NCBI GenBank assembly: GCA_964035575.1
Contig: OZ037927.1
Span: 1 to 64,000 of the forward strand
Direction of reading: 5' to 3'
DNA: 64,000 bases
DNA from: Rhynchopus sp. YZ270_cl-10
Taxonomy: Eukaryota; Euglenozoa; Diplonemea; Diplonemida; Diplonemidae
Part shown: piece by piece, positions 4,557-30,738 of the stretch
Numbering within the stretch: position 1 is the stretch's first letter
Layout: every line of letters starts with the position of its first letter
Program-made: the position numbers and the translations under genes
The notes under the pieces: generated by a model
Databases searched by the model: none
What the model saw: the letters and a program-made list of their open reading frames with translations, nothing else
What the model was told of the DNA's origin: nothing

Positions 4557-4629
4557 TGGAGATTGAGGGTATCGATCCCTCTACCTCTCGCATGCTGAGC
4601 GAGCGCTCTACCATTTGAGCTAAACCCCC
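4557..4629 (-). tRNA. tRNA-Ala(AGC), C33
   Basis: Acceptor GGGGGTT/AATCTCC keeps the G3-U70 pair that marks tRNA-Ala. Anticodon stem CTCGC/GCGAG is perfect, but the loop is TCAGCAT, so position 33 is C instead of the near-universal U. All three Ala isoacceptors of the window show this. Confidence 0.92.
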
Positions 4630-4723
4630 TTACATTTCTTAAACGAATCTTTACAAGGTGGGGATGAAATTCAAAACCAAAAGGGGAAAAGTAACACACA
4701 GAAAATCTTGAAACAAAAAAGAG

Positions 4724-4795
4724 AGGGCACACCCGGGTTCGAACCAGGGACCGTTCGGACTGCAGCCGAATGCTCTACCACTGAGCTATATACCC
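4724..4795 (-). tRNA. tRNA-Cys(GCA)
   Basis: Acceptor GGGTATA/TGTGCCC, discriminator U, the Cys identity base; anticodon stem TTCGG/CCGAA around loop CTGCAGT. Decodes UGU/UGC. Confidence 0.95.
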
Positions 4796-4878
4796 TTCAA
4801 TAATCATGCTTTGCGCTGAATACTATCAGTTCACTTTTCAACCAACTTCTGTGTGTTACACCACAAATAAGGAAAAAA

Positions 4879-4997
4879 GGATTCAAGCACCCGGACTTCC
4901 CAGCTGGTCACCCACGCCAGTACTATCCAGGCCTGCTGGTGCTTAACTTCTCAAATCAGGCGGGATGAGGTGTATTCACCAGAGTATGGCCGAATCC
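4879..4997 (-). rRNA. 5S: 5S ribosomal RNA (copy 1)
   Basis: A 119-nt match to the eukaryotic 5S fold. Ends GGATTC/GAATCC pair, the internal control region with AGAAGTTAAGCACC is intact, and a T run follows. Transcribed by Pol III into the large-subunit rRNA. About 65 bp of upstream flank (4998-5064) is shared with 5S copy 2 (5738-5804), so gene and flank duplicated together. Confidence 0.95.
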
Positions 4998-5144
4998 AAT
5001 AATGGGTCTGGGTGGAAAACCTTTGAAGAGCTTTATATTTCTGAGCTTGTTTTTGCTTCACTTGTGCAAAAGGTCTTGGGTGTTGCATGGTACAGGAAAC
5101 TTTATTTGTCTCCCCTGTTCCGCTGCACTCTGCATTAGGTCATT

Positions 5145-5540
5145 TCACCTAAAATAAGGCCAGTTTGCGATCTTCTTGGAGTATCTTGGTGTCCAGTACA
5201 GTGTTTCTGGCATTGTGGACTTGCATGTTGTACAGGGCAACTGCCTGGGAATTAGTCCCACTTCTTGCAACAGTTTAGCTATTTCGGCATCCCCAGCGCG
5301 CATGATATTAAGCACAGGAGAATTTTTGGCTGCAGGTGCGCACGTCCCTTCTGGGGAGTATGGATGCCTCTTCCTCAGTTTTTGTTGTGCATTTTTGCAC
5401 CTTCTCACCAAAGGTGAAATTGTGAATGCTGTCATGCAGCATTCACATTCCAGCATGCTCCTGTAGGCTGAAGCACCGTCGGTGGTGTAGTCTCCCCTCA
5501 TTTCTGCTCTCTGGATAGTGCAACAAACACAGGGATACAA
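5145..5540 (-). pseudogene. Possible remnant of an ISXO2/Merlin-like transposase, or an unrecognised RNA locus
   Basis: A 131-codon open frame. Its C-terminal third has a zinc-ribbon look (KLLQEVGLIPRQLPCTTC, then a W about 14 residues on), like the N-terminus of ISXO2-type DNA transposases. The second copy of the region carries a 15-bp insertion that brings in a stop, so it is not under coding constraint. A small-RNA promoter palindrome lies over its upstream end (5538-5573). The minus strand also has a perfect 10-bp hairpin, GTGAATGCTG/CAGCATTCAC, so an RNA gene is the alternative. Confidence 0.25.
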
Positions 5541-5573
5541 GACAGGGTTGTCTTGTTGGAGGTGGGTCAGGGT
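5538..5573 (-). promoter_or_regulatory. Pol III-type palindromic upstream element without an identified gene
   Basis: Minus strand reads ACCCTGACCCACCTCCAAC then the inverted repeat CAAGACA-ACCC-TGTCTTG. The same element lies 25 bp upstream of U6, SRP RNA and the unknown RNA, so a transcript starting near 5513 on the minus strand is predicted. As at 18190-18394, it follows a 5S gene. Confidence 0.6.
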
Positions 5574-5618
5574 CTGGATGTCCTAAAACCACACACCAAC
5601 ACGGAAGAAAAGCAAAAA

Positions 5619-5737
5619 GGATTCAAGCACCCGGACTTCCCAGCTGGTCACCCACGCCAGTACTATCCAGGCCTGCTGGTGCTTAACTTCTCAAATCAGG
5701 CGGGATGAGGTGCATTCACCAGAGTATGGCCGAATCC
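5619..5737 (-). rRNA. 5S: 5S ribosomal RNA (copy 2)
   Basis: Same 119-nt 5S sequence as 4879-4997 apart from one change seen near the 5' end (TGCATTCACC for TGTATTCACC on the plus strand). Terminal helix and T run are intact. Minus-strand transcription leads towards the orphan palindromic promoter at 5538-5573. Confidence 0.95.
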
Positions 5738-6017
5738 AATACTGAGTCAGGTTCGAAAACCTTTGAAGAGCTTTTTATTTCTGAGCTTGTTTTTGCTTCG
5801 GTTGTGAAAACCGGTTTGTGGGTCAGCAGGTTTAACAAGTTTGGCCAGTCCTTAGCACAGCACTTAGTGCGCTGCACTACTGCATCGGAGCAGGTGCCTG
5901 TGTGCTCACAGGTCACCACTCAGTGGTCGATCCCTCTAGACCAGTGTGCTGGGTTTACTGGGTTTACTGGGTAACATGATGGTTTGTGTGATCACGTTTG
6001 TTTTGGTTTGTTTGTTT

Positions 6018-6179
6018 AAAAAGGCGGGTTTGTGCAAAGCACAGCACCGCCGCTGTCAAAAATTTCACTGTGCAAGCCAGCCGAAGCTAGTGCCACCAGT
6101 ATCCCCTGCGCAGTGCAATGCAAGGGCCACTGGTGTGTCGACGCCCTTGTTGATCAGGTCAGACACCAGTAAGGTATGT
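6018..6179 (-). ncRNA. U1: U1 snRNA
   Basis: Recognises 5' splice sites. Stem-loop I carries TGATCAACAAGG, the U1-70K-binding loop type, and stem-loop II carries ATTGCACT, the U1A-type loop. Then come an Sm site AAATTTTTG and a 3' hairpin GGCGG...CCGCC before a T run. The 5' end reads ACATACCTTACTGG, not the usual ATACTTACCTG, so it would pair best with AAG/GTATGT. That fits the GTATGG donor of the SL RNA. The exact 5' base is uncertain by a few nucleotides. Confidence 0.88.
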
Positions 6180-6216
6180 AACCTCTAGCTGAGTTTAACA
6201 ACATGCGAAACTCCAA

Positions 6217-6232
6217 CACCTTCAGGGAAGCG
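6217..6232 (-). promoter_or_regulatory. U1 proximal element (GCTTCCC core)
   Basis: Minus strand CGCTTCCCTGAAGGTG, about 38-53 bp upstream of the U1 5' end. Shares the GCTTCCC(T/A)G core and spacing with the elements upstream of U2, U4, U5 and SL RNA. Confidence 0.55.
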
Positions 6233-6255
6233 TAGTGGTTGTCAAGACTTAAAAA

Positions 6256-6378
6256 CAGATGAGACACAAAGGCCCCTTCAAAAATTATGCTTTCACATAG
6301 TGGCTCTTACCCACGGTCATCTTTAGTAAAAGGCGAAAGATGAGTTCGATATGGGCAAGAACCGTGATATGGCTCTGT
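6256..6378 (-). ncRNA. U5: U5 snRNA
   Basis: Spliceosomal U5. The stem ATCTTT/AAAGAT encloses the invariant loop I GCCTTTTAC (plus strand 6326-6334), which aligns exons. A flanking stem ACGGT/ACCGT, an Sm site AATTTTTG and a short 3' hairpin follow. Ends are estimated from the T run at 6251-6255 and the proximal element spacing. Confidence 0.92.
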
Positions 6379-6379
6379 T

Positions 6380-6842
6380 TTGTTCTATTGCTGTGTGCAC
6401 TTTGCTACACATGGAAGCATGTTGAGAGCGAGGATAGTGTGGTAACTTCTTGATTGATCAAGATGTCCTTGAAGGTGAAAAAAGTAATGTGAAGCCTTTT
6501 TTGAGGTTTTTCTTAAAAACAAGCTGTAAGTGGAAGGGCTGTGCCTGGTACTCTTCCCTGCGCCATACAGGGGAGAGACAAAACAATACAAGAAGTATGT
6601 GACAATCATCGCAAGTGCTCATGCTGCACATGCCCAACCTATGTCATCATCCAGCTTTGGTCTTGTGCCGAAGAAAACAATCTTCAACACGAATGCACTC
6701 AAAAACAGATCCTGTGTAGAGTACAGTCTTGCCCTTGTTTGTTCCACCTATCGGCTGCACAGATGTCTATAGGGAGGCACATTGGCGGTGGTAGTTTTGG
6801 TGTGTTAACTTTACGTGGTGTCTATATGTTACCACCCCAACA
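6380..6842. other. Spacer between U5 and U4
   Basis: Apart from the U5 and U4 upstream elements at its edges I recognise no gene, tRNA fold or tandem repeat. Short open frames on both strands show no coding signature. Confidence 0.6.
6405..6421 (-). promoter_or_regulatory. U5 proximal element
   Basis: Minus strand CATGCTTCCATGTGTAG, matching the U2 element CATGCTTCCCTGTACATG in its first nine bases and lying at the same distance upstream of the RNA. Confidence 0.55.
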
Positions 6843-6859
6843 CACTTCCCTGTGGACAT
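6843..6859 (+). promoter_or_regulatory. U4 proximal element
   Basis: CACTTCCCTGTGGACAT ends 33 bp upstream of the estimated U4 start. Same core and spacing as U2 and SL RNA. Confidence 0.55.
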
Positions 6860-6892
6860 AGCTTTGTGACACGACTGGGAGAAAAGGAGGTA

Positions 6893-7036
6893 TTCTTGCG
6901 CTCGGGATAATTCCATAAGCAATGACCAAATAGGGACGCTGTGGAGAGATTGCTGGTTGAAAACTACCCAATTCCCGCCATGGGCCGCTTCGGCGTTGCC
7001 ACATTGGCAATTTGTGTAGCTGCTTCGGCGGCCTTG
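6893..7036 (+). ncRNA. U4: U4 snRNA
   Basis: Pairs with U6 before spliceosome activation. The 5' part TTGCGC...GGGACGC forms the 5' stem-loop between the two U6-pairing regions. TTGCTGGTTGAAAACTACCC aligns with the conserved human segment around stem I. Further on are CATTGGCAATTTGTG (Sm site) and a terminal hairpin GCTGC-TTCG-GCGGC followed by T5. The 5' end is judged from the fold and is uncertain by several bases. Confidence 0.88.
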
Positions 7037-7135
7037 TTTTTACTAATAAGATTGATCATCACCTTCACTTACTTCCCTGTGACATGGGTGTGTAATCTGC
7101 TTGCCTTGTTGTTTCCTAGTAATATTGATCATAAT

Positions 7136-7153
7136 CATGCTTCCCTGTACATG
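7136..7153 (+). promoter_or_regulatory. U2 proximal element
   Basis: CATGCTTCCCTGTACATG, an imperfect palindrome ending 34 bp upstream of the U2 start. The SL RNA genes have CATGATTCCCAGAACATG at the same distance. A second, similar block, CTTCCCTGTGACATGGGTGT, lies about 65 bp further upstream. Confidence 0.6.
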
Positions 7154-7186
7154 GGTGTCGAATTCGGTATGGACTAAAAAGAAGTC

Positions 7187-7373
7187 ATACCTTCTCGGCC
7201 TTTTGGCTAAGATCAAGTGTATTATCTGTTCTTATCAGCTTAATATCTGATACAGTGCCTTGTGCACTGATGATATTAACGCAATTTCTCATTGGGGTGA
7301 CGGGTCGCCAGGGCAACCTGGTCCGTTCACACATGTTGCCCTGGAGCTGCACAACATCCAGGAGTGGCATACC
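7187..7373 (+). ncRNA. U2: U2 snRNA
   Basis: Starts ATACCTTCTCGGCC with stem I, then AAGATCAAGTGTATTATCTG and TTCTTATCAGCTTAATATCTGATA in short conserved blocks. Stem IIb (CAGTGC/GCACTG), an Sm-like AATTTCTC and 3' stem-loops lead to a T run at 7377-7382. The branch-site pairing region is GTATTA where most eukaryotes have GTAGTA, which predicts a changed branch motif. Trypanosome U2 is also divergent here. Confidence 0.93.
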
Positions 7374-7632
7374 CTCTTTTTTAACAAAACAAAAACAAAC
7401 ATACCATACATACCATACATACACAGTGGTTACCACTGTGATGTGGGTTATTAAAAACAGAGGTCGGAGCGAGCCTCTCAATGTCAGAGGCTTCAAAGCA
7501 TTTCACGAGAAAACTCGCCCCTGTCCTTCTTCATCACTATCACTTGACCGAACACTCCCTGCAAGGAAGCCTGTAAAAGGCGATGCTTAGGCAACAACAC
7601 AGACACAGGGGGGGTGCTGGGTGGGAAAATAT

Positions 7633-7963
7633 AAAAAAGGGTGCTTGCGTTGTGTGCTGGATCGGGACCACCAGTAAACTGGCAGCCCCACATCCAGTTC
7701 TAATATTTGAAGTGTGAAATAGAACGCAGTCAGAATTAGTGTTACACGCTAATGTAAGAATAATCATCATGGGTAATATTCTGTACGAACGTACGGGATT
7801 TACATCATATGAAAGTAGTTCCGCCTTGGGCCATATCAGGCCCAACAGCAGGACCGCATCATAAAAATTGTAAAGAATTTTCTTAAATAGAAAGGTCTTT
7901 TCAAGTTTTAGCTGTTGCTGAACGAGTTGTTTGGTTTCGAAGTAGCACACTAACTTAGCACCC
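7633..7963 (-). ncRNA. Unidentified structured RNA X, form A
   Basis: About 325 nt from a palindromic Pol III-type element exactly 25 bp upstream (7988) to a T6 run. Terminal bases GGGTGCT and AGCACCC pair and would close the molecule. Internal helices include TTGGGCC/GGCCCAA, GTACG/CGTAC and CCAG/CTGG. A diverged second form at 18419-18758 keeps these helices with compensatory changes. The closed-end layout recalls RNase P or RNase MRP RNA, but I cannot match their core motifs. Box C/D-like words are present but do not make a convincing snoRNA. Confidence 0.75.
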
Positions 7964-7987
7964 AAACATAGGGAGAGTATGGGAAAA

Positions 7988-8023
7988 CAAGACAGGGTTG
8001 TCTTGTTGGAGGTGGGTCAGGGT
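7988..8023 (-). promoter_or_regulatory. Pol III-type palindromic element of RNA X
   Basis: Minus strand CCCTGACCCACCTCCAAC followed by CAAGACA-ACCC-TGTCTTG. The palindrome edge is 25 bp from the first base of RNA X. The same spacing holds at U6, SRP RNA and RNA X form B. Confidence 0.75.
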
Positions 8024-8078
8024 GACACACACTTTGTACATGCATCATATGTGTGAATGTTTTTTCTCATGGTGACGT

Positions 8079-8197
8079 AAAAAAGGCCAGTCTCTTTCGA
8101 GGCTGGCCATGTTTGACAAAGTTGTGTGAGAAGAATATAATCTTCATGCTTCCATACCAATGAAGTACAGAAACTGTAGCTTTAGAAATCGTTGGTT
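8079..8197 (-). ncRNA. Spliced-leader RNA 1
   Basis: SL RNA donates its 5' exon to mRNAs by trans-splicing. The leader (8158-8197, 40 nt) starts AACCAACG and ends CTTCATTG, then the donor GTATGG. The intron half has the hairpin GAAGATTATATTCTTC, an Sm-like AACTTTGT, and a GAAA-capped terminal hairpin ending GACTGGCC before T6. The hairpin carries GGCCAGCC and the upstream core is GTTTACC rather than GCTTCCC, so this is the most diverged of the five copies. Confidence 0.93.
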
Positions 8198-8229
8198 GCC
8201 CTTTTTCTTAACATTGCTCTAAGCACCAA

Positions 8230-8249
8230 CATGTACTGGTAAACATGCC
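8230..8249 (-). promoter_or_regulatory. SL RNA 1 upstream element (diverged)
   Basis: Minus strand GGCATGTTTACCAGTACATG occupies the place of the GGCATGCTTCCCAG-type element seen upstream of the other SL genes. The core is altered, so promoter strength may differ. Confidence 0.45.
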
Positions 8250-8355
8250 ACTTGTGGTGAATAATGTGGGTAGGAATGGTCTGGGCAACGTGGTGGGGTG
8301 TATCAACAACACATGTGTATGGTGATGTGGAAACAATGTTCACATGGAAAAATGT

Positions 8356-8674
8356 AAAAAAGAAACGCTTCTCCAGTTCAAGCCATTGAGTTGGAAACAC
8401 CCTCACTCTGCTCTGTGCTGCGATCCTTGAACTGTCCACTGCAGGAGTTATGAGCTGCTCTGTGAGACCAGCCTGGCCCGGTTCACCCCATTTCACTCTG
8501 ATTGTTGCCCTGGTTTACACCAAGGCCGCAAACAGGACAGTAGACTAACACGGACAACACATCAACACAGAAGTTGAAGGTGCCTTTGGTCCACCTCAAA
8601 GAGTGCCCAGTTCTGGAGAAGCTTGCCCCCCCAGAAGCTAGGGGTTTCAGGATGCAGCCAACACATCCCGGCTC
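8356..8674 (-). ncRNA. 7SL: SRP (7SL) RNA
   Basis: RNA scaffold of the signal recognition particle. The minus strand contains GGGGTGAACCGGGCCAGG and, a little further on, AGAGCAGCTCATAACTCC and GGATCGC, which align with helix 8 and helix 5 of human 7SL in order. The 5' end GAGCCGGGATG resembles the 7SL Alu-domain start. Ends are set by the palindromic element 25 bp upstream (8699) and a T6 run (8356-8361), giving about 313-319 nt. The helix 8 apex has GGTCTCACA instead of a clear GGAA-type tetraloop. Confidence 0.88.
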
Positions 8675-8698
8675 AATAGATACCATATTGTCGGAATA

Positions 8699-8732
8699 CA
8701 AGACAGGGTTGTCTAGTTGGAGGTGGGTCAGG
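8699..8732 (-). promoter_or_regulatory. Pol III-type palindromic element of SRP RNA
   Basis: Minus strand CTGACCCACCTCCAACTAGACAACCCTGTCTTG, split here as CTGACCCACCTCCAAC and the imperfect palindrome CTAGACA-ACCC-TGTCTTG, 25 bp from the SRP RNA start. Confidence 0.7.
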
Positions 8733-8820
8733 TCAAAAACGTGGTTTTGAAGATCCTCACTTCTTGTGTGTGTTTTTTTTTGCTTTGCACAAAGACACAC
8801 AAAGACAATCATGCTAACGT

Positions 8821-8939
8821 AAAAAAGGCCAGTCTCTTTCGAAACCGGCCATGTTTGACAAAGTTGTGTGAGAAGAATATAATCTTCATGCTTCCATACC
8901 AATGAAGTACAGAAACTGTAGCTTTAGAAATCGTTGGTT
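8821..8939 (-). ncRNA. Spliced-leader RNA 2
   Basis: Same layout as SL RNA 1: leader 8900-8939, donor GTATGG, Sm-like AACTTTGT, terminal hairpin ending CTGGCC, T6. The leader sequence is unchanged. The upstream core GCTTCCCTG lies at 8980-8986 region, 41-47 bp from the start. Confidence 0.95.
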
Positions 8940-9154
8940 GCTCTTTTTCTCTACACAGCTTTCGACATGTATATGCTCAGGGAAGCATGCCAGTAGCATA
9001 AACCATATGGTCGTTTTTTGAAACCAATATTTCAATGGGTTACTGCAGCCTGCCACTTGCCACCTGTGGGTGATGGGTATGTCTGCACATATGTGTTGGT
9101 CTGGGAAGCATGAAGAAGACACCAGTGTAAAAAATACGTGTGATCCGGGGGACA

Positions 9155-9263
9155 AAAAAAAAGTTGATACTTTCTCGATTAATGCGTGTCATCCTTGCGC
9201 AGGGACCATGCTAATCTTCTCTGTATCGATCCAATTTTAACGGATGTCCCATTTCTGGGGTCC
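9155..9263 (-). ncRNA. U6: U6 snRNA
   Basis: Catalytic spliceosomal RNA. It contains the ACAGAGA box in GATACAGAGAAGATTAGCAT, then the AGC triad and internal stem-loop segment CCCTGCGCAAGGATGACACG. It ends in a T9 run typical of Pol III. The start at 9263 is set by the palindromic element and fits a 5' hairpin CCC-AGAAA-TGGG. Confidence 0.95.
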
Positions 9264-9287
9264 AGTATATATGCACAAGGTGGTTGA

Positions 9288-9323
9288 CAAGACAGGGGCC
9301 CCTTGTTGGAGTTGGGTCAGGGT
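9288..9323 (-). promoter_or_regulatory. Pol III-type palindromic element of U6
   Basis: Minus strand CTGACCCAACTCCAAC then CAAGGGG-CCCC-TGTCTTG. The right half is conserved and the left half is altered. Edge 25 bp upstream of U6. Confidence 0.7.
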
Positions 9324-9400
9324 CTGAATGTGGTTCTAAACTTCTGCTGTTGTTGTGTGGGTTTTTTTGCTTCTTGTGCACAAGACGATCGTGTTAACGT

Positions 9401-9518
9401 AAAAAAGGCCAGTCTCTTTCGAAACTGGCCATGTTTTGACAAAGTTGTGTGAGAAGAATAATCTTCATGCTTCCATACCAATGAAGTACAGAAACTGTAG
9501 CTTTAGAAATCGTTGGTT
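9401..9518 (-). ncRNA. Spliced-leader RNA 3
   Basis: Leader identical to the other copies, 9479-9518. The intron hairpin is two bases shorter (GAAGATTATTCTTC). Sm-like site, GAAA-capped terminal hairpin and T6 are present. Confidence 0.95.
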
Positions 9519-9550
9519 GCCCTTTTTCTCTACAATGTTCTAAGTGCCAA

Positions 9551-9568
9551 CATGTTCTGGGAATCATG
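9551..9568 (-). promoter_or_regulatory. SL RNA proximal element
   Basis: Minus strand CATGATTCCCAGAACATG, edge 33 bp upstream of SL RNA 3 and clearly similar to the U2 element. Equivalent blocks with GCTTCCC(A/T)G lie 41-47 bp upstream of SL 2 (8980-8986), SL 4 (9978-9984) and SL 5 (10412-10418). Confidence 0.65.
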
Positions 9569-9819
9569 CCATATGTATCATTATTATGGTGGGTTTTTTT
9601 TCTAACATAGCCGTAGAGTGGCTTATAAACATACCTAAGGATGCCCAATGTGCTCGAAAGTCCAAAAATCTTGGGAATACGGGATATTTGGGCTCATTTG
9701 AGTCAATTGCGTGGTCGTACAATTTAATCTGAGCATTACACATATCCTAATCACCAAAATATTCGAAGAACATGGGAATCATGTGTGTTTTTTGGGTTTG
9801 CACAAGGTGATGTTAACGT

Positions 9820-9937
9820 AAAAAAGGCCAGTCTCTTTCGAAACTGGCCATGTTTTGACAAAGTTGTGTGAAGAATATAATCTTCATGCTTCCATACCAA
9901 TGAAGTACAGAAACTGTAGCTTTAGAAATCGTTGGTT
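9820..9937 (-). ncRNA. Spliced-leader RNA 4
   Basis: Leader 9898-9937 unchanged, donor GTATGG. Hairpin, Sm-like AACTTTGT and terminal hairpin with T6 intact. Confidence 0.95.
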
Positions 9938-10253
9938 GCCCTTTTTCTCTACAATGTTCTAGGTACCCACTTGTTCTGGGAAGCCTTCTGCCAATGTCTA
10001 TAATACGGTTGCTTTTTCGTACCTGACATCTTGGTCACTGTGAAGGTTCTACATAAAAATATCCTTAAGTGTGATCCTACAGAAGGATATTCGACAGAGT
10101 CAACAGTGGCTTCTGAAGGGGAACAAGTGTCACAAATATGGTTTTGCAGGCGATATAAAAATGGGGTGCAGTAAGCACTTGTGTGTTATGTCATGTGTGA
10201 ATCGTGTGTGTTTTTGGGTTTGCTTCTTGTGCACAAGACGATCATGCTAACGT

Positions 10254-10371
10254 AAAAAAGGCCAGTCTCTTTCGAGACTGGCCATGTTTGACAAAGTTGT
10301 GTGAGAAGATATAATCTTCATGCTTCCATACCAATGAAGTACAGAAACTGTAGCTTTAGAAATCGTTGGTT
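10254..10371 (-). ncRNA. Spliced-leader RNA 5
   Basis: Leader 10332-10371 unchanged. The terminal hairpin GGCCAGTCTC-GAAA-GAGACTGGCC is the only perfect one among the five, followed by T6. Confidence 0.95.
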
Positions 10372-12884
10372 GCCTTTTTTCTCTACAACGTTCTGAGTAC
10401 AGACGTGTCCTGGGAAGCATGCCAGTAGTGTAAAAAATATGATGGTTTTTTTGTACCTAACATCTTGTACACTGAGAAGGTTCTGCACAAGTGGAAGCCT
10501 ATATAAGGATATTCATAAGAGTCAAAAGGGGCTTCTGAAGGGGTATATGGGTAGTATGAGCTCATATGAATCCATTAAAAGCGTCTATGGCATGATCTAA
10601 GCATCACATAATTTCTGAAATCAATACCAACCACAATTTACGGCTATTTTTCCAGCAATAGCCGTATCATGGCTTATAACCATACCTAAGGATGTCCAAT
10701 ATGCTGGAAAAGTTAATAATCTTGGGTGTATAGGGTTTTTGGGCACATTTGAGTCAATTGCGGGGTCTTACGATTTAATCTGAGCATCACACATATCCTA
10801 ATCACCTATATAATCGAAAAACACATACAAAATGACCTACATAGCCGTAAAATGACCCAAATGTGCATATTCGGGTTGAAATTTCATTTTTTCGGAAAGT
10901 TTTTTTTTCTCAACAATTACATGGGTGAGTTCCGAGTACATTATGGGGTCGTAAGTTTTTATTCAAGCATCACACATTATGTAGAATAATTTATGCCATA
11001 CAATGTTACCAAAAAAAGTCGATTTTTGGTCACTTTTTCAAAAATATGAAAATTCGATTTTTGGGTACTAGATAGGTCTTTCCGGTGCAAAAACGACCGT
11101 TAAATGGATTCTCCGGGGTCCTAAGGCCCCAAAAATCACTTTTGGACACACGGGCAATATCCCAGTATACCCTAGGAAATTGGTGGGAACCCAAAAATTG
11201 GCCTCAAAATCCGACCAAAACCAAGGTTTCTGTAGAGGTACATGTGAACCTCATGTGTGTTCTGGAGACCCATTTTGTTTTTAAAAGTGAATCTAAATAG
11301 CCAAAAATTTAAAACTCTTGTAGCGCATTCGGAATAGAGGGGGTATTCGCGAAAACCTGTGCGAAACATTTATCAATTCAGGTCTGACCCACATGGTCAT
11401 GACCCCATATTTTGGGTGCGGAAAACACCCTATCTGTTGACCTACCGGCTTGTATGCCTGTATACCTGGTTGGGTCAACTTTTTGAAAATTTCCTGGGCC
11501 ATATACCCTATTTGGGCCCCCTGAATCCATTGCGACATCGTTTTTTCACATCCGAGTGAAAACTAATATATAGGATAACCCATGGGTATGGGTACCTCGC
11601 TCAATACCCCTAAAATCAGTGCTTTTGAAAATGACCCTATGGAAAAATGTATCCAAAATATTGAAACATGTTCTCCTGGCATCTGCAACACGATATTTTG
11701 GGCCCCCTGGGCCCCGGGGGCCCTACGGGCCCCCATATTCGCGAAAAGTTGGGCATCCCAGCTAGTGGGTCGGTACTGGGTATACAAACATCCCCCCAAA
11801 AAGTGAGATTTTGACCCCCCAAAAATGGCCATTTTTTTACTCCCCGGGACCTTCTCAGGTGTGTATTCGGACCCTCTCGTGGTCTTAAACCGGATTTTTG
11901 GGGCCCCCACACCCTGGAATACCCCCCATAGTGTCGTTTTTTCACCCGCAGGGCCGATTTTTTAGAAAAAAATTGGTTTTTAAGGAACAACATTTACCCT
12001 GCGACACCTTGAAAAACAGGTGATTTTTGCCTTTTTCAGTTGTGTGTGTGCAGTGCCGAATTCCCCAGGCTTGGTGAAAGTTGTGCCTCCAATACCCCTA
12101 TGTGGGTTGGAAAAATCAAATAAAGATAAAATTTTGAGGCAGCCTGGGGGTGTGCTATGGTAAACAATTTGTGTGTGTAAAAATACCCCTAAAAAACACC
12201 CTAAAAATGGCTGTTTTTCGCCTATTTTTGGGGGTCGCCTGAGCTATTTTTTTTATTGTTTTGGCTTTTCCTGGGACCTGAAAATAGGGTCCTGGGCCCA
12301 ATATGTCCCAATGAGGCCATTGGAATATCGATTTTTTCCAGATATGGGCCTCCTAGACCGAAATTTTTGATTTTGGTGTTGCAAAAATTTTCGAAAATCC
12401 TGAAAAGTGCCCAAAAACACGTAAAAACACGTGTATAGGCACACCCTATCGGCCCCCAGCATTGCCCAGGATTGTTGCAAATTTTCCCTGCATGGGGGCC
12501 CTCCGGGCCCCCTGGACCCATTGCGACCCGATTGGTTCACATTCCTGGAAAATTTGGTCCCTAAGACACATACGTGGTTAACATACCCCTGAAAAACACC
12601 CTATTTTTGACCCTAAAAAACACCCTATTTTTGACCCTGAAAACATGATTTTAGCAAATAGGGCAACTAGTTTGGTGATCCAGCGACCGACTCATGGGCC
12701 CAGTATGTCCAACAGGGCCATATGTTTGGTAAATTTTACCGGGGGCAAGGGGATGTACAAAAAAAAAGTGGATTTTTTACCTTAAAAAAATGGCCAAAAA
12801 TAGGCCAAAAATGGCCATTTTTCGGCCATGTGACCCCCACAGCAACCCTATATAGACCCCAAAAAACCTAATATTTTTTTCCCA

Positions 12885-12927
12885 GCGATGTGTCCTGGGG
12901 GCCCTTCGGGCCCCCAGGACACATCGC
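12885..12927. repeat. Perfect 20-bp inverted repeat
   Basis: Arms GCGATGTGTCCTGGGGGCCC and its exact complement are separated by TTC. It would form a very stable hairpin on either strand. Confidence 0.95.
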
Positions 12928-22471: not shown

Positions 22472-22488
22472 TGCCTCCACCTGGGATT

Positions 22489-22537
<49 letters not shown>

Positions 22538-22544
22538 AAGAGGC
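22472..22544 (-). tRNA. tRNA-Phe(GAA)
   Basis: Acceptor GCCTCTT/TGGAGGC with one mismatch at the inner pair, discriminator A; stem TCAGA/TCTGA around loop CTGAAGA. Decodes UUU/UUC. Confidence 0.93.
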
Positions 22545-22622
22545 CTTGTTTTAGGGTATGCATATTTTTTACACGGCCAACATTTTTTGAACAGGTCAAA
22601 GTCAAAGTAGTAGAAAAAGTAT

Positions 22623-22695
22623 TGGTCGTGACAGGGCTCGAACCTGGGACCGTTGGCTTATTAGACCAATGCTCTACCGACTGAGCTACACGACC
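22623..22695 (-). tRNA. tRNA-Ile(AAT)
   Basis: Acceptor GGTCGTG/CACGACC, discriminator A; stem TTGGT/GCCAA around loop CTAATAA. A34 is likely inosine. Confidence 0.94.
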
Positions 22696-22779
22696 GACAA
22701 TAATGACGAAAGGAATCGCCAACCTGGGGTACACACTATTTTTTTTCTGTTGTGCACAAAACTGTATTTGCATGACCTC

Positions 22780-23560: not shown

Positions 23561-23635
23561 ACAATGGTGCCAGTTCATATTTTTGTGTGTTAACTGGCCC
23601 AACCAAAAAATAATCAACAAAATAAGGCAAAAAAA

Positions 23636-23707
23636 TGGACATTGAGGGGTTCGAACCCTCGGCCTCCCGTATGCAGAACGGGCGCTCTACCACTGAGCTA
23701 AACGCCC
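23636..23707 (-). tRNA. tRNA-Ala(TGC), C33
   Basis: Acceptor GGGCGTT/AATGTCC with G3-U70, discriminator A; stem CCCGT/ACGGG around loop TCTGCAT, C33. Decodes GCA. Confidence 0.93.
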
Positions 23708-23819
23708 CTGATAAATGTCCCTCAAGGAGACGTACTTGGGGCACTTTCTGTTCGTCTTTTTGTCAGTTTTTTTCAAGAACGCAACAAGCCTTGAAATCAC
23801 TCTTTCCTTTAAAACGAAT

Positions 23820-23891
23820 GCCCGCCTAGCTCAGCGGTAGAGCGTTGGACTTTTAATCCAATGGTCGTGGGTTCGATCCCCACGGCGGGTG
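23820..23891 (+). tRNA. tRNA-Lys(TTT)
   Basis: Acceptor GCCCGCC/GGCGGGT with G1-U72, discriminator G; stem TTGGA/TCCAA around loop CTTTTAA, normal U33. Decodes AAA. Confidence 0.95.
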
Positions 23892-23968
23892 CCTACTTTT
23901 TTGGATCGATTGGATTCTCTTTTTTGTGCCCATTTTCAGGATCTGGGGCGTTGTACTTCCTCAACTAT

Positions 23969-24050
23969 GCTGACGTATCCAAGTGGTTACGGAGGTGGAC
24001 TTGAAATCCACTGGGCTCTGCCCGCGCAGGTTCGAACCCTGCCGTCAGCG
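23969..24050 (+). tRNA. tRNA-Ser(TGA)
   Basis: Class II. Acceptor GCTGACG/CGTCAGC, discriminator G; stem GTGGA/TCCAC around loop CTTGAAA. Decodes UCA. Confidence 0.95.
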
Positions 24051-24164
24051 TTCTTTACCTTTTCGTTTGATTTCTGTGATCTATGTTTTGTCATCAAATG
24101 CAGAGATTGAAGATGTGTGTGACAAAGCTCCAAAAAATATTGAAAACACTTGGAAAAAGAAAAG

Positions 24165-24236
24165 TTCTCCCACGCGGGTTTGAACCGCGGCTACTGGATT
24201 CAAAGTCCAGGGTGCTAACCACTACACCATAGGAGA
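24165..24236 (-). tRNA. tRNA-Gln(TTG)
   Basis: Acceptor TCTCCTA/TGGGAGA, discriminator A; stem CTGGA/TCCAG around loop CTTTGAA. Decodes CAA. Confidence 0.95.
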
Positions 24237-24338
24237 GATAATCCGGATCCTTTTGTTCACGCAACAACGATGGAAAATGTGATGGTTGCAGGTACACACA
24301 AGTACCCCATCTTGATTCTTTGGTTTAAGTTAATATGA

Positions 24339-24411
24339 GCCTCCCTAGCTCAGTCGGTAGAGCGCAAGGCCCTTAACCTTGTGGTCGCGGGTTCGAGCCC
24401 CGCGGGAGGTG
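24339..24411 (+). tRNA. tRNA-Lys(CTT), C33, gene 1
   Basis: Acceptor GCCTCCC/GGGAGGT with G1-U72, discriminator G; stem CAAGG/CCTTG around loop CCCTTAA, so C33 although Lys(TTT) keeps U33. A second copy lies at 30666-30738. Confidence 0.93.
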
Positions 24412-24631
24412 CTTTTTGTATTGATACCTGAATTTTTCTGGAATTTTTTAAATTTGTTGGAAAACATGGTGTGTCGGCCGTCGTGCAATGAGCTCACCAT
24501 CGCGCGAAATCGTGCCCAAAAAATTTTTTTGGTGGTCACAATTGCGATGATTTTTGGTGACCACACAAGTGATCACTAACGTGTCGTTAAACAAAGTACA
24601 AGCTTCGTCCTAAGTACTGACAGGTAATTAA

Positions 24632-24713
24632 GCGGACGTACCCAAGTGGTTACGGGGCTCGCCTGCTAAGCGAGTGTGCTCTGCATGCGCAAGTTCGAAC
24701 CTTGCCGTTCGCG
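24632..24713 (+). tRNA. tRNA-Ser(GCT)
   Basis: Class II. Acceptor GCGGACG/CGTTCGC, discriminator G; stem CTCGC/GCGAG around loop CTGCTAA. Decodes AGU/AGC. Confidence 0.95.
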
Positions 24714-24966
24714 TTTTTTATACACTGCATCGATCCCTTTTTTCATTCTGTTCTGAACTTTTTCAAACTCAAAAAAAAAACCTGACAAAATCTGTTTTAT
24801 CTTCAGGTCAACAATCTCCAAGTTAGGACAGCATTCAAGATGTTTGGTTTTTTTGGTGAGACAACCTTGGAAATCTGAAAAATAGTTTCAACATCAAGAT
24901 GACACACAATGTGGATTTTTAGCTCAAAATCAAAAATAGAATCAAAAACTCAAAAAAATGAAAAAT

Positions 24967-25039
24967 CTCCTCCTGTTGGGTTCGAACCAACGACCTGCAG
25001 GTTAACAGCCTGACGCGCTACCGACTGCGCCAAGGAGGA
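24967..25039 (-). tRNA. tRNA-Asn(GTT), gene 2
   Basis: Same sequence as the Asn gene at 4057-4129 within the gene; flanks differ after a few bases. Confidence 0.95.
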
Positions 25040-25153
25040 TCTGATTGTTAGCGAAGACAGCATTTACATGGGGACCTTATTCAAAACGAAAACACACACA
25101 AGGAATGATGGAAACTTATGGCCTTGGTACGAAGAGAATGCGAGAGAATTCGT

Positions 25154-25225
25154 GGCTCGGTGGTCTAGTGGCATGATTCTCGCTTAGGGTGCGAGAGGTC
25201 CGGGGTTCAATTCCCCGCCGAGCCC
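25154..25225 (+). tRNA. tRNA-Pro(AGG)
   Basis: Acceptor GGCTCGG/CCGAGCC, discriminator C; stem CTCGC/GCGAG around loop TTAGGGT. A34 is likely inosine. Confidence 0.94.
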
Positions 25226-25322
25226 TTGTCTTTTTGGATTTTCATTTTTATTTATTTTTTCGTTTGAAATTCCGTGTTCCTTGCACAAAAGTACCCTTTT
25301 TGGATTGTGCCTAAGTATCACC

Positions 25323-25394
25323 TCCCCTTTAGTACAGTGGTTAGTATACCTGGCTTTCACCCAGGCGACCCGGGTTCAAACCCCGGAGGGGGAA
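25323..25394 (+). tRNA. tRNA-Glu(TTC)
   Basis: Acceptor TCCCCTT/AGGGGGA, discriminator A; stem CCTGG/CCAGG around loop CTTTCAC. Decodes GAA. Confidence 0.94.
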
Positions 25395-25505
25395 TCCTTT
25401 TTAATTGCTTTCAAATTTCGGAGCTGTTTTTTGATATTTTCGCATTTCTGAATTTTCAATTTGGCAAAGGAGGAAATCTAAAAATATTTTGGAATGAACA
25501 AAAAG

Positions 25506-25577
25506 TACTCGCGGCGGGGATCGAACCCGCAACCTCCGGCGTCGGGAACCGACGCGCTTCCATTGCGCCACGCGAGC
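25506..25577 (-). tRNA. tRNA-Arg(CCG), C33
   Basis: Acceptor GCTCGCG/CGCGAGT with G1-U72, discriminator A; stem TCGGT/GCCGG (two wobbles) around loop TCCCGAC, C33. Decodes CGG. Confidence 0.88.
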
Positions 25578-25639
25578 TTATCTTGTTTCCCAAGATCTCA
25601 GATTATGGAGAAGGTTTGGCAATGTCTAAAAAAAAGTTC

Positions 25640-26640
25640 AAAAATTGATAAAACAGCCAGTTGCCCTTGGTGCATGACTGGTTGTACTGTGGTGGACCCG
25701 TGCACTTTCCGTACAGTCCTAGGCCAGCAAACCCACACACGCAATGGGCATACGGGTTTGCTATGCCATCCATTGCACCTGTGCATAAGATAAGGCACAT
25801 GTCCAGCATGTATTCCCCCATCGTGAAACTCCCTTGTGCACCCAACATACCACACCCCTGGCCATATTGGTAAGGCATATTAGTAAGGGTACCTGGTCAG
25901 ATCTGACCAGGCACCTGGTCACAGTGACTAGGTAGGTGGGCGCACAGGGGGTAAGCTAATCGGGCGCACAGGGGGATCCCTAATCGGGCGCACAGGGGGG
26001 TATTCCTAATCGGGCGCACAGGGGGGTAAGCTAATCGGGCGCACAGGGGGGTATTCCTAATCGGGCGCACAGGGGGGTAAGCTAATCGGGCGCACAGGGG
26101 GGTTGGCCCGCAAACGTGATGTCTCTGACCAGTGCACCGGCCATATCTTGGGAATTTTGTGAAGAAATATACATGTAAGTCAGGTTGGGTTTATGAACAT
26201 GTTGTAGTCCCAACCTGACTTACATGGTTATGAAAAACCTGACTTACATGGTTATTAACCCAGGGAATTTTGTGAACAAATAAACATGTAAGTCAGGTTT
26301 TTCATAAACACGTAAGTTAACCCAAAAACATGCGGCCACCAGAGCGGCCATACTGACTTACATGTTTATGAACTGGGATTTTTGTGAACAAATAAACATG
26401 TAAGTCAGCATGGGTTTATAAACATATGAGTCAAATTTTTTTTCGATTGTGACGGAAGTTGTGACTGAACTGACTTACTATGTCGAGCAAAAACCGGCAT
26501 CAGACAAAAAATTTCTTTCTCCACTAAGAATCCTTACACAAGAAAGAGTACATATCATTTCCACTTTTTCGTTTTGAACGAGTTTGTGACTGACCTGAAA
26601 CTGTCCGAAACCATATTGTTTTGCTTTTGTCAATCGCAAA
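25640..26640. repeat. Short-repeat spacer
   Basis: Holds seven or so copies of CTAATCGGGCGCACAGGGGG (25935-26105). From 26165 to 26430 it has many ACTTACATG boxes in both orientations, like those at the ends of the mobile element at 27701-28975. No gene recognised. Confidence 0.75.
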
Positions 26641-26647
26641 AAGAGAG

Positions 26648-26718
26648 TGCGTAATCCGGGAATCGAACCCGGGCCGACCCCGTGGCGGGGGGCCATTCTA
26701 CCACTAGACCAATTACGC
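26648..26718 (-). tRNA. tRNA-Gly(GCC), C33
   Basis: Acceptor GCGTAAT/ATTACGC, discriminator A; stem GCCCC/GGGGT around loop CCGCCAC, C33. Decodes GGU/GGC. Confidence 0.9.
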
Positions 26719-26834
26719 TACGATATTAGTCGAAATTGTGCTCGAGTTGCCGCTCGTTGCATGGTTGAAAAATATTTCACAATATCCCTCGAAATAAAAC
26801 CCTTTCTGAGATCCCAATAAGTGGGAATATTCAA

Positions 26835-26906
26835 GCGGTTATGGTTTAGTGGTTAGAACACCCGTTTGTGGCACGGGAGACCCGAGTTCAATTCTCGGTA
26901 ACCGCT
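26835..26906 (+). tRNA. tRNA-His(GTG)
   Basis: Acceptor GCGGTTA/TAACCGC; stem CCCGT/ACGGG around loop TTGTGGC. G-1 is not encoded as part of the helix. Decodes CAU/CAC. Confidence 0.94.
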
Positions 26907-26994
26907 TTTTTAGCTGTACAATCAACCGTCTAAATTTTTTTTCAACTCCAAAAATATGCAGGCCACATAAAAAATACTATTGCCTAAAGACATG

Positions 26995-27066
26995 GACCGT
27001 GTGGCTCAATGGAAGAGCGCCTGACCACGGATCAGGCGGTTGCAGGTTCGAGTCCTGCCACGGTTG
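26995..27066 (+). tRNA. tRNA-Arg(ACG), C33
   Basis: Acceptor GACCGTG/CACGGTT with G1-U72, discriminator G; stem CCTGA/TCAGG around loop CCACGGA, C33. A34 is likely inosine. Confidence 0.92.
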
Positions 27067-27155
27067 CTTCTTTTTTTAGGCAATTTGAAGAATTTGAAAT
27101 TATTTTCATTTTGAAATCGCCCCTCACAAAGAAAACACTTTGCATGAAAGTAACA

Positions 27156-27227
27156 GCACTTATGGTATAACGGTTAGTATTCTCGCCTTCCAAGCGAGCG
27201 GCCCGGGTTCGACTCCCGGTAAGTGCA
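27156..27227 (+). tRNA. tRNA-Gly(TCC)
   Basis: Acceptor GCACTTA/TAAGTGC, discriminator A; stem CTCGC/GCGAG around loop CTTCCAA, normal U33. Decodes GGA. Confidence 0.94.
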
Positions 27228-27513
27228 GTTCTTTTTTTAAAGGGGGAAGCAAAATTTTCATGTTCAGAAAATTTTTTCTGAAATGTCAGCTTTTCAAAGA
27301 ATTTCCAGTTTTCAAGTTTTTCCCAAAAATTTTTCAAGGTTCTTATGGGTGGGTTGACTACCAAAAAATCCAAAATCCCGGGGTGACCCCTTCCCACTGG
27401 ACCCAATGTTTTTATCTGTTGTGACTGTAACTTGTCACTGTAATTCATTTGACACCAACCTCTCACTTTTTTGTGTTTTCAAAAAAGTTCAAAAAAACAA
27501 TGTTCAAAAAGTT

Positions 27514-27586
27514 AACCCCGTGCGGGACTCGAACCCGCAACCTTTGGATTCGAAGTCCAACGCGCTATCCATTGCGCCAACGGGGC
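27514..27586 (-). tRNA. tRNA-Arg(TCG)
   Basis: Acceptor GCCCCGT/ACGGGGT with G1-U72, discriminator U; stem TTGGA/TCCAA around loop CTTCGAA. Decodes CGA. Confidence 0.93.
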
Positions 27587-27648
27587 CTGATTTGATTTTC
27601 ATCAGAAAAGAAACGAAACAATGAGTGGGAGCCCTGTACAAAAAAGAA

Positions 27649-27700
27649 TTCCCCGGCCGGGAATTGAACCCGGGTCTTCCGCGTGACAGGCGGAAATACT
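27649..27700 (-). pseudogene. tRNA-Asp(GTC), 3' part of a split gene
   Basis: Identical to the 3' two thirds of the intact Asp gene (loop CTGTCAC, T-arm, acceptor CCGGGGA), then broken off in the D-stem region at AGTATTT. The missing 5' part sits 1.28 kb away at 28976-29002. Confidence 0.95.
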
Positions 27701-28975
27701 GGGCCATACTGACTTACATGGTTATGGGAAAACTTACATGTTTATGGAAAAAACTGACTTACATGTTTATGAAAAACATGACTTACATGTTTATTAAGCC
27801 GGGGATTTTTGTGTACAAATAAACATGTAAGTCATGTTTTTCATAACCATGTAAGTCATGTTTAGATTTTTGCCGGTTCATAACCATGTAAGTCATGTTT
27901 TTCATAAACATGTAAGTCAGTTTTTTTTTGAGGTCAGGTCGACATTCAATACCCGGGTCGGGAACATATTTCTGCCACTTAGCCAAAAACTGACTTGTCT
28001 CGGGGGTTGAACCCGCTACCATAAGAAAAATTTTACCTGCGTGGTAACCACTCGGCTACACTGTCTCATACTTCTCCACACAGTTTTTCTGAAGAGGTCC
28101 TGACCAATTGCGGGTTCTAGGTTACGTTATCTGACTGGTGGCTGTGCGGGTTTGCGGGTTTGCGGGTGCGCGGGTTTGCGGGTTCGAGGTTGCGTTATCT
28201 GGCTGGTGTGGTGGTGCGGGTGCGCGGGGTTCGGGCAACGTTATCTGGTTCGTGGGTTAATAAGCTGGCTGGTGGGTGCGGGTGCGCGGGAACCTGCTGG
28301 TTCTAGGTTGCGTTATCTGGCTGGTGGTTGTGCGGGTTTGCGGGTTGACGGGTGCGCGGGTTTGCGGTCCCTAGCTGGTTCGTGTGGTTGTGCGGGTGCG
28401 CGGGGTTCGGGCAACGTTATCTGGCTGGTGTGGTTAATAAGCTGGCTGGTGGGTGCGGGTGCGCGGGAACCTGCTGGTTCTAGGTTGCGTTATCCGGTTG
28501 GTGTGGTTGTGCGGGTGCGCGGGGTTCGGGTAACGTTATCTGGTTCGTGGGTTAATAAGCTGGCTGGTGGGTGCGGGTGCGCGGGAACCTGCTGGTTCTA
28601 GGTTGCGTTATCTGGTTCGTGTGGCTGATAGGGTTCTCGGGGGTCAGTTACTTAGCTGGCTCGTGTGCTATGTTATGTGGGTGAACACCATCAGTATCCT
28701 TCCCCACGGACTAAGGGTAAAACACTTTGCACACAGACACAAAAATTTTGCCAGAGGTCTTCTCATAAGAAATTTTTCACAGGCAAAAAAAAAATTTTTT
28801 TTTTCGAACGAGCTTTTTCTGAAGAAAAATTTTTTTTGTGTAGAAAAAATTTTTTGGCCTGTAAGTGGGTCAACCTGAAAATCCATAAACATGTAAGTTT
28901 CCCACCATAAACATGTAAGTCATGTTTTTCCCAAAACATGTAAGTGGATCCCAAAACATGTAAGTCATGGTCACC
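27701..28975. mobile_element. 1275-bp non-autonomous mobile element inside tRNA-Asp
   Basis: Flanked by a perfect 7-bp duplication AAATACT (27694-27700 and 28976-28982); removing the element and one copy restores tRNA-Asp exactly. Ends are loosely inverted: GGGCCATACTGACTTACATG on the left, and GGTGACCATGACTTACATG reading in from the right. Both sides carry many subterminal boxes ACTTACATG-TTTATG in both orientations. The interior has a G-rich minisatellite (28130-28680, units with GGCTGGTGGGTGCGGGTGCG) that includes TTTGCGGG units, and a tRNA-like stretch. There is no transposase, so it is presumably moved by another element. Confidence 0.85.
27995..28066 (-). other. tRNA-like fragment within the mobile element
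   Basis: Reads TAGCCGAGTGGTTACC (D-arm-like) and GCGGGTTCAACCCCCG (T-arm-like), but the acceptor ends do not pair and the anticodon arm is disrupted. Probably a tRNA-derived remnant. Confidence 0.4.
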
Positions 28976-29002
28976 AAATACTGACCTCTATACTACCGAG
29001 GA
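28976..29002 (-). pseudogene. tRNA-Asp(GTC), 5' part of the split gene
   Basis: Matches the first 27 bases of the intact Asp gene (acceptor TCCTCGG, TAGTATAGAGGTC, then AGTATTT), ending in the target-site duplication. Confidence 0.95.
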
Positions 29003-29100
29003 TACAATCTTCACTCTGATTTAATTTCGCGCATCAAAATGGTCTAAAATGAGCACAGAAACGACGAAAATGCACGAAAATTCGTGAACAAAAAATGAAT

Positions 29101-29182
29101 CGCAGTCGGCAGGACTTGAACCTGCGCGGGCAGAGCCCAATGGATTTCTAGTCCACCTCCGTAACCACTTGGATACGACTGC
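29101..29182 (-). tRNA. tRNA-Ser(AGA)
   Basis: Class II. Acceptor GCAGTCG/CGACTGC, discriminator G; loop CTAGAAA. A34 is likely inosine. Decodes UCU/UCC. Confidence 0.94.
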
Positions 29183-29259
29183 TGTAATTCTCACCGTTCT
29201 TTGTTTTTAGGCAGTCATCTGTTTGCAGAAAATAATCTGGAACACGAAAACGAAAAAAA

Positions 29260-29343
29260 TCCTCTCGGCCGGAATCGAACCAGCGACCGCTCGATAACCG
29301 AGTATTCTACAGTCGAGCGCTCTACCAATTGAGCTACGAGAGG
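29260..29343 (-). tRNA. tRNA-Tyr(GTA) with 11-nt intron
   Basis: Acceptor CCTCTCG/CGAGAGG gives the eukaryotic C1-G72 Tyr pair, discriminator A. The anticodon stem CTCGA/TCGAG encloses CTGTAG, then an 11-nt intron AATACTCGGTT (plus strand 29296-29306), then A. It is the only intron-bearing tRNA seen. Trypanosome tRNA-Tyr also has an 11-nt intron. Confidence 0.94.
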
Positions 29344-29467
29344 TTCTACAACTGTCATTGTTTTCACAGAAGCCCATAAAATTTTTTGGCTCAAAAAAAT
29401 TTTTTTGCCACACAAACCTGTAGAAATTTGCACCCCATGTATTTCTTAATGATACGATAATATCAAG

Positions 29468-29540
29468 GCGAGGTTGGCGCAGTCGGGAGCGCGTAGGTCC
29501 CATAATCCTAAGGTCGTCAGTTCGATCCTGGCACCTCGCA
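29468..29540 (+). tRNA. Elongator tRNA-Met(CAT), C33
   Basis: Acceptor GCGAGGT/ACCTCGC, discriminator A; stem TAGGT/TCCTA (U31-U39 as in human elongator Met) around loop CCCATAA, C33. The T loop is TTCGATC, not the initiator form. Confidence 0.92.
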
Positions 29541-29625
29541 CTTTTTTGTGTGTCTTTTTCCTTTGTGTGGGATTTTCAGCAAAATTTCCACCTTCATGCT
29601 AAACGCATTGAAGCCCTAAATCATG

Positions 29626-29696
29626 GGCCCTATGGTGTAGCGGTAGCACTATGGATTCCAAATCCATCAACGGCGGTTCGATTCCGTCTAGGGTCA
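29626..29696 (+). tRNA. tRNA-Trp(CCA)
   Basis: Acceptor GGCCCTA/TAGGGTC, discriminator A; stem ATGGA/TCCAT around loop TTCCAAA. Decodes UGG. Confidence 0.93.
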
Positions 29697-29778
29697 TTTC
29701 TTTTTTTACACACTTTCCTTTCTGTGTTGTCTTGAAAAACTTCTTCGCAGGAGAAACAGCAAAAGCATCTTAATCAGC

Positions 29779-29850
29779 GGCGATTTAGCTCAGTGGCAGA
29801 GCATTGGTCTTGTAAACCAAGGGTCGGGGGTTCGATCCCCCCAGTTGCCT
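29779..29850 (+). tRNA. tRNA-Thr(TGT)
   Basis: Acceptor GGCGATT/AGTTGCC, discriminator U; stem TTGGT/ACCAA around loop CTTGTAA. It keeps U33, unlike the other two Thr genes. Decodes ACA. Confidence 0.94.
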
Positions 29851-30660
29851 TTCTATTTTTTGGTGATGTGATGTGATGTGGTTGTGCTGAAGAAGCAGCA
29901 ACTGAGCACTGGATGTGACAGGCAGGAACGCAGAAGGGAGATGGCCTGGCCGTACTCCAGTACAGGCCCGAGCGAGTGCTCACAGAATGGGCTCCAAAAA
30001 CCAGCACAGAATGGAATGGCTGGAGACTTATAGGCTTACTGTAAGGATTTGTTAGGAGTGGAAAAAAAAACTCCTGACCCGGGTATTGAATTTTCAGATC
30101 ATTTTCTCAGTCACAATGCAAGCACAGAATGGAAACGAAAAACCAGCACAGAATGGAATGGCTGGAGTCTTATAGCCGTGTTCCATTCTGTGCTTGGTTT
30201 TGGTTTCCATTCTGTGCTTGCATTGTGACTGAGAAAATGATCCGAAAATTCAATAGCCAGGTCAGGAGTTTTTCCATCTGAATTATGGATTGCTAAGGAT
30301 TTCCCAGCCATTCCATTCTGTGCTGGATTCCACCATTCTGTACTGGTGAGTCGCCAAGAAGCGGCAGCTGAGCACACTGGACATGCCCAGAAAGGAGATA
30401 AGTTGTGGGGCTGAAACGTGCTATCCCCAGCAAAAGGGTCTGGCACTTTTCGCGAGTGGAAGCAGTTCACACCTGGTTGAACGCAAAACCTACACCGGTC
30501 GGTGGGAGTCCTGTGTTGGTTCGGAAAACACATATTTTCACCCAAATTCCACTCTCAACTTGCCAACGAAACAGAACTGAGATCAAGTGGAGGAAATATT
30601 TTTTGGTTTTCATTTGCCTCAAAATCTCAGAAACCTGCAAAATCGTAAACATTCAAAAAG
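29851..30660. repeat. Spacer with CCAGCACAGAATGG inverted repeats
   Basis: CAGCACAGAATGGAATGGCT and its complement recur between 29980 and 30340. One long inverted pair (about 30070-30170 against 30178-30270, with CATTTTCTCAGTCACAATGC) could fold into a hairpin. Possibly a palindromic mobile remnant. No gene recognised. Confidence 0.6.
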
Positions 30661-30665
30661 AAAAG

Positions 30666-30738
30666 CACCTCCCGCGGGGCTCGAACCCGCGACCACAAGG
30701 TTAAGGGCCTTGCGCTCTACCGACTGAGCTAGGGAGGC
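30666..30738 (-). tRNA. tRNA-Lys(CTT), C33, gene 2
   Basis: Same gene sequence as 24339-24411 with loop CCCTTAA, so C33 is not a sporadic change. Confidence 0.93.

Follow-up and report, generated by a model that had tools for sequence, protein, structure and literature searches.

Cytidine encoded at position 33 in ten elongator tRNA species of a diplonemid

We analyzed a 64-kb stretch of eukaryotic DNA, here called the window, that opens contig C95 in an assembly of 152 Mb and 126 contigs. Ten of the 45 tRNA species encoded in it have a C at position 33 (C33) in place of U. U33 is present in 97% of known tRNAs; the anticodon U-turn is made by this base, which Elongator also uses (PMC11096365). 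The C33 finding is real and, as far as tested, genome-wide. Our tentative preference is that the encoded C33 is deaminated to U in the tRNA by an activity that acts late, with the normal U-turn being regained.

C33 among the tRNA genes of the window

The window codes for 56 tRNA genes as found by ARAGORN. Merging duplicates and leaving out the intron of tRNA-Tyr gives 45 distinct sequences. Position 33 is a C in 10 of them and a T in 35, including the initiator tRNA-Met, while a purine is found there in none of the 45. The C33 species are Ala(AGC, CGC, TGC), Thr(CGT, AGT), Lys(CTT, two genes), Arg(CCG, ACG), Gly(GCC) and the elongator Met (Table 1). They are spread over six amino-acid families and all ten departures from U33 are to C. 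The division into ten C33 and 35 U33 species, with Lys(CTT) as a pair of genes, had been put forward in the original prediction and was confirmed both by the ARAGORN genes and by re-reading the bases at their coordinates. The stems of the C33 tRNAs, described there as sound, are so with one exception. All have a 7-nucleotide anticodon loop and a 5-bp stem, and the single unpaired stem position is T31/T39 of the elongator Met. A U31oU39 is given as normal for elongator tRNA-Met (PMC9023262).

All 45 distinct tRNAs retain U8 and U55. The absence of C at these two positions (0/90) compared to its presence at position 33 (10/45; Fisher P 8e-6) indicates that C33 is not due to chance. At position 54, Ala(AGC) and the initiator Met have an A while all other tRNAs have a T. 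The initiator Met (20724) is told apart from the elongator Met (29468) by A1:U72, A54 and A60. The tRNA-Ala(AGC) at 4557-4629 also has A54 and A60 in its T-loop (ATCGATA), like the initiator tRNA. A gene called as Ser(aga) at 29260-29343 is a tRNA-Tyr(GTA) with an 11-nucleotide intron that is miscalled when introns are disallowed; the C33 claim is unaffected.

Table 1. Positions in the window of the C33 tRNA genes, the initiator tRNA-Met and the tandem array. Coordinates are window positions.
Feature	Coordinates	Strand	Position 33	Anticodon loop	Remarks
Tandem array	3305..43703	.			unit ~27.7 kb; second unit from ~30988, incomplete
tRNA-Ala(AGC)	4557..4629	-	C at 4597	TCAGCAT	5-bp stem; ARAGORN
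tRNA-Thr(CGT)	18860..18931	-	C at 18900	TCCGTAA	
tRNA-Ala(CGC)	19005..19077	-	C at 19046	TCCGCAT	
tRNA-Thr(AGT)	19358..19430	+	C at 19390	CCAGTAA	
Initiator tRNA-Met(CAT)	20724..20796	+	U	CTCATAA	contrast case; A1:U72, A54, A60
tRNA-Ala(TGC)	23636..23707	-	C at 23676		
tRNA-Lys(CTT) gene 1	24339..24412	+	C at 24371	CCCTTAA	
tRNA-Arg(CCG)	25505..25577	-	C at 25546	TCCCGAC	
tRNA-Gly(GCC)	26647..26718	-	C at 26687	CCGCCAC	
tRNA-Arg(ACG)	26995..27067	+	C at 27026	CCACGGA	
Elongator tRNA-Met(CAT)	29468..29541	+	C at 29500		
tRNA-Lys(CTT) gene 2	30665..30738	-	C at 30706		tRNA sequence same as gene 1
tRNA-Ala(AGC), second array unit	32240-32312		C at 32280		identical copy

Copies across the genome

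To the window we added ten other array sites on ten contigs, comprising 20 stretches (three without tRNA genes) and 324 tRNA genes. The ten species have C33 in all 68 readings at these sites and the remaining species T33 in all 256. T33 is found in the initiator Met of the window and again in all 7 of its further copies read.

The whole genome was also searched with sequence patterns. For Ala(TGC), a search with T33 in the pattern and at most three mismatches allowed matched 171 places, none of them exactly. All 81 places within two mismatches (80 with one, 1 with two) have C33; 80 carry the same 28-base stretch and the other is a diverged, dispersed copy. The dispersed copy, on contig C54 (stretch L025, 4948-5019), has a few changes, retains C33 and has no T-run in the 17 bases downstream. 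Of the 90 places with three mismatches, 19 were listed and all are of the Ala(CGC) type with C33. With a pattern allowing either base at position 33, the elongator Met was found at 83 places, all with C33; 82 of these matches are exact and the remaining one has three mismatches. Exact T33 patterns for the three Ala, Thr(AGT, CGT), Arg(ACG, CCG) and Gly(GCC) had no match in the genome; the C33 forms of these patterns recover the window genes, though divergent U33 genes could escape exact patterns. The exact Ala, Thr, Arg and Gly T33 patterns also detected no retrocopies of an edited tRNA, which would appear as U33 copies. Neither the C33 tRNA-Ala(TGC) stretch nor the spliced leader was found in viral contigs (0 and 0).

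The original prediction held that it would fail if U33 versions of the same ten tRNAs elsewhere in the genome supplied all expression and the copies here were silent. The genome-wide pattern search found none for nine of the ten species, all but Lys(CTT). For Lys(CTT), 18 of 18 matches within the 311,417 bases read have C33. It is quite improbable that the array copies are silent with U33 genes elsewhere supplying the working tRNAs. The copy on C54 does show a tRNA can sit outside the arrays, and the genome-wide U33 search covers nine species without Lys(CTT) and could miss U33 genes diverged within the pattern sequences. However, that copy also has C33, and T33 matches are absent for Ala, Thr, Arg, Gly and the elongator Met. 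In addition, the U33 species sit in the same arrays, and T-runs of at least four T within 30 nucleotides downstream follow all the window genes, 12 of 12 with C33 and 44 of 44 with U33. Errors in assembly or reading, and wrongly placed anticodon loops, can be considered refuted for practical purposes. We found nothing in their favor, the same bases are present on many contigs, and the loops are 7 nucleotides long with intact stems.

Readings of C33 in a diplonemid

To gauge the codon load on the C33 tRNAs we used 11 reading frames with 4106 codons, a small, hand-picked sample in which some ends are possibly wrong. It consists of nine of 13 candidate frames, four having been dropped as doubtful, and two deaminase genes; three of the frames are near-copies of one gene. 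By standard wobble rules the C33 species read 1100 of the 4106 codons (27%), among them AUG, AAG and every Ala codon. No further elongator Met was seen in the sequence examined. Given the T-runs, this codon share and the lack of another elongator Met, the C33 tRNAs very probably work. Poorly working C33 tRNAs would be costly as about 27% of the sampled codons depend on them. A tRNA-Leu(TAA) gene was not found in the window (unit 3450-32478), the genome not having been searched for it, while TTA codons do occur (13 of 4106 sampled codons). The Diplonema papillatum genome likewise is without a tRNA-Leu(UAA) (PMC10161547).

Judged by its sequences, the host is a diplonemid. The spliced leader is presumably of the euglenozoan type. 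The single DYW match and the absence of tRNA-Leu(TAA) from the window also agree with this placement. A PPR-DYW protein is 66% identical to one from D. papillatum, its closest match with an organism name. The host's ADAT2 has 67% identity to D. papillatum tad2 and 68% to a transcriptome protein labelled 'Rhum', which we take to be Rhynchopus humris. The large-subunit rRNA is in one piece (model 1-3401 matched contiguously), which the title of a cited paper presents as a mark of diplonemids versus other euglenozoans. Diplonemids and kinetoplastids are sister groups (PMC12699882), making the editing of C32 in trypanosomes a phylogenetically close precedent.

Four proteins match the PF00383 deaminase profile, and there is one DYW match, in the PPR protein. 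The best solved relatives of the ADAT2 gene (L027) are named tRNA-specific adenosine deaminase 2. The other PF00383 proteins are a cytidine deaminase, RibD and a fourth protein that reads as dCMP-deaminase-like.

The original prediction offered either editing or tolerance of C33, and both remain, with late editing somewhat favored. In the favored reading the C33 genes would be expressed as elongator tRNAs and their C33 deaminated to U. The enzyme could be the CDA-type one or ADAT2/3, in the latter case possibly helped by a methyltransferase, as happens at trypanosome C32. Deamination would come late, after or independent of modification of the wobble U34. With such an editor in place, further drift of tRNA genes from U33 to C33 would be harmless, and free U-to-C drift of this kind fits C-only departures scattered over six families. 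The same C33 in all copies read, the failure to find a U33 substitute for nine of ten species and the presence of deaminase genes including ADAT2 lean slightly towards editing. C-to-U editing takes place in diplonemid mitochondria (PMC12699882), and the authors of the D. papillatum work suggested, in another context, that its ADAT enzymes might also carry out C-to-U changes (PMC10161547). It may be, though with a little less confidence, that the diplonemid regains U33 in ten elongator tRNAs encoded in the nucleus through C-to-U editing. This would be the first editing system directed at the U-turn base, with about a quarter of codons relying on it.

Several observations weigh against editing. 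ADAT2/3 usually acts on tRNAs with A34, and Lys, Gly and Met of the C33 set fall outside these usual targets. An ADAT3-like gene was not detected with PF00383, although a diverged or split subunit could escape the profile. No sequence feature was found to mark the C33 tRNAs: among 240 position/base tests, with the Lys(ttt) row (1/45) misaligned, none survives correction, the best raw P being 0.0017 for A23 at position 23. No single base at anticodon positions 34-36 differs significantly between C33 and U33 species.

The bases at the wobble position bear on when an editor would act and count against editing in an early form. The four families with both C33 and U33 species (Thr, Lys, Arg and Gly) include five U34 species, and all five encode U33 (stratified one-sided P 0.033, in a test conceived after the table had been seen). 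Across all families, unstratified, C33 is found in 1 of 13 U34 species versus 9 of 32 others (two-sided P 0.24). The exception is Ala(TGC), where U34 is found together with C33. As Elongator needs U33 (PMC11096365), the retention of U33 in U34 species would suggest C33 is still there when Elongator acts. The pattern speaks weakly against early editing in the nucleus and for either tolerance or editing at a late stage.

Under tolerance, C33 would stay in the mature tRNA, ribosomes or other loop modifications would suffice, and only the Elongator-dependent U34 tRNAs would be held to U33. We regard this as a serious possibility, if a less probable one than late editing. Consistent with it, the U34 species have U33 in all four mixed families, and no large deaminase set was seen, with four PF00383 matches and one DYW match. 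C33 also occurs naturally in the initiator tRNA of animals (PMC9023262) and in tRNA-Cys(GCA) of the Sulfolobales (PMC7668247). However, Ala(TGC) combines U34 with C33, and about 27% of the sampled codons, including AUG and AAG, would hang on C33 tRNAs. In yeast, U33C and U33A but not U33G changes in tRNA-Gln(CUG) cause a pseudohyphal phenotype, which the authors link to impaired CAG decoding or charging (PMC3664417).

Alternatively, C33 could be turned into another base that mimics U33, for example a modified cytidine with an N3 hydrogen-bond donor. Lysidine and agmatidine at position 34 are modified cytidines of this kind. Such a base would account for C-only departures without a C-to-U signal. 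To our knowledge no such cytidine modification is known at position 33; we consider this unlikely.

Array setting and known systems

The tandem array in the window is a housekeeping-RNA super-array with a 27.7-kb unit. Its first unit encodes 47 tRNA genes as found by ARAGORN, 5S rRNA, U2, U4, U5, U6, the signal recognition particle RNA and five spliced-leader-like genes or exons. The two units are 99.7% identical over the first 12.7 kb, and the tRNA genes of the unit were found again on many contigs. Preceding the array, about 3.3 kb at the start of the window (1-3290) consists of an 8-base, telomere-like repeat, (TTTGCGGG)n, in which a small number of TTTACGGG variants are interspersed. A string search of the literature with TTTGCGGG gave, among the matches listed, none on protist telomeres by title. 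Neighboring the array, the minus strand carries two long reading frames with a reverse-transcriptase domain (44183-50410 and 56197-63912); a (TGTGGAGC)n block lies between them at 50652-52395. Elsewhere, an 18S-type motif with two mismatches to a consensus is found at 19 places outside contig C111, including stretches L021-L023; these are perhaps dispersed pieces of ribosomal DNA.

As in the diplonemid, many tRNA species of Methanopyrus kandleri encode a C where U is universal, and this C8 is edited to U8 by CDAT8 (PMC3695527). In that archaeon the position is 8, C is encoded in 30 of 34 tRNA genes and editing is proven, while here C is encoded at position 33 in 10 of 45 tRNA species of a eukaryote and editing is a proposal. 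All 45 window tRNAs have T8. Trypanosomes change C32 to U in all three tRNA-Thr, and ADAT2/3 was shown to act on tRNA-Thr(AGU) after methylation by Trm140 (PMC6382703). Trypanosoma brucei belongs to the sister lineage, its edited tRNAs are nuclear-encoded, the position neighbors 33 in the anticodon loop, and ADAT2 is present in our host as well. Unlike position 33, position 32 is not a universal U, and the trypanosome targets are tRNA-Thr isoacceptors rather than tRNAs of six amino-acid families. C32 is found in Thr(AGT) and Thr(TGT) of the window whereas Thr(CGT) has T32.

The animal initiator Met and the Sulfolobales tRNA-Cys(GCA) share C33 in natural tRNA genes, though with one C33 species each. 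Here the initiator has U33 and ten elongators have C33, the reverse of animals. Euglenozoan changes at positions 33 and 34 are known from trypanosomatid mitochondria, where the imported tRNA-Trp undergoes C34-to-U editing and carries s2U33 (PMC6382703, PMC4394434). This involves one tRNA, in mitochondria, with U encoded at position 33, unlike the diplonemid C33 set. By the tests made, the C33 set belongs to neither the Methanopyrus nor the trypanosome system, though it may work like them.

Our literature searches, covering titles, the starts of abstracts, some passages and few subscription papers, gave no report of C33 in many elongator tRNAs. Neither 'C33' nor 'U33' is in the main text of the D. 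papillatum genome paper.

With C33 in ten of 45 species, the cell either edits C33 in RNA or translates about a quarter of its codons without U33. Either outcome, a new tRNA editing activity or ribosomes coping without U33, shifts what counts as fixed. The diplonemid C33 set also lets Elongator's dependence on U33 be gauged in a natural setting.

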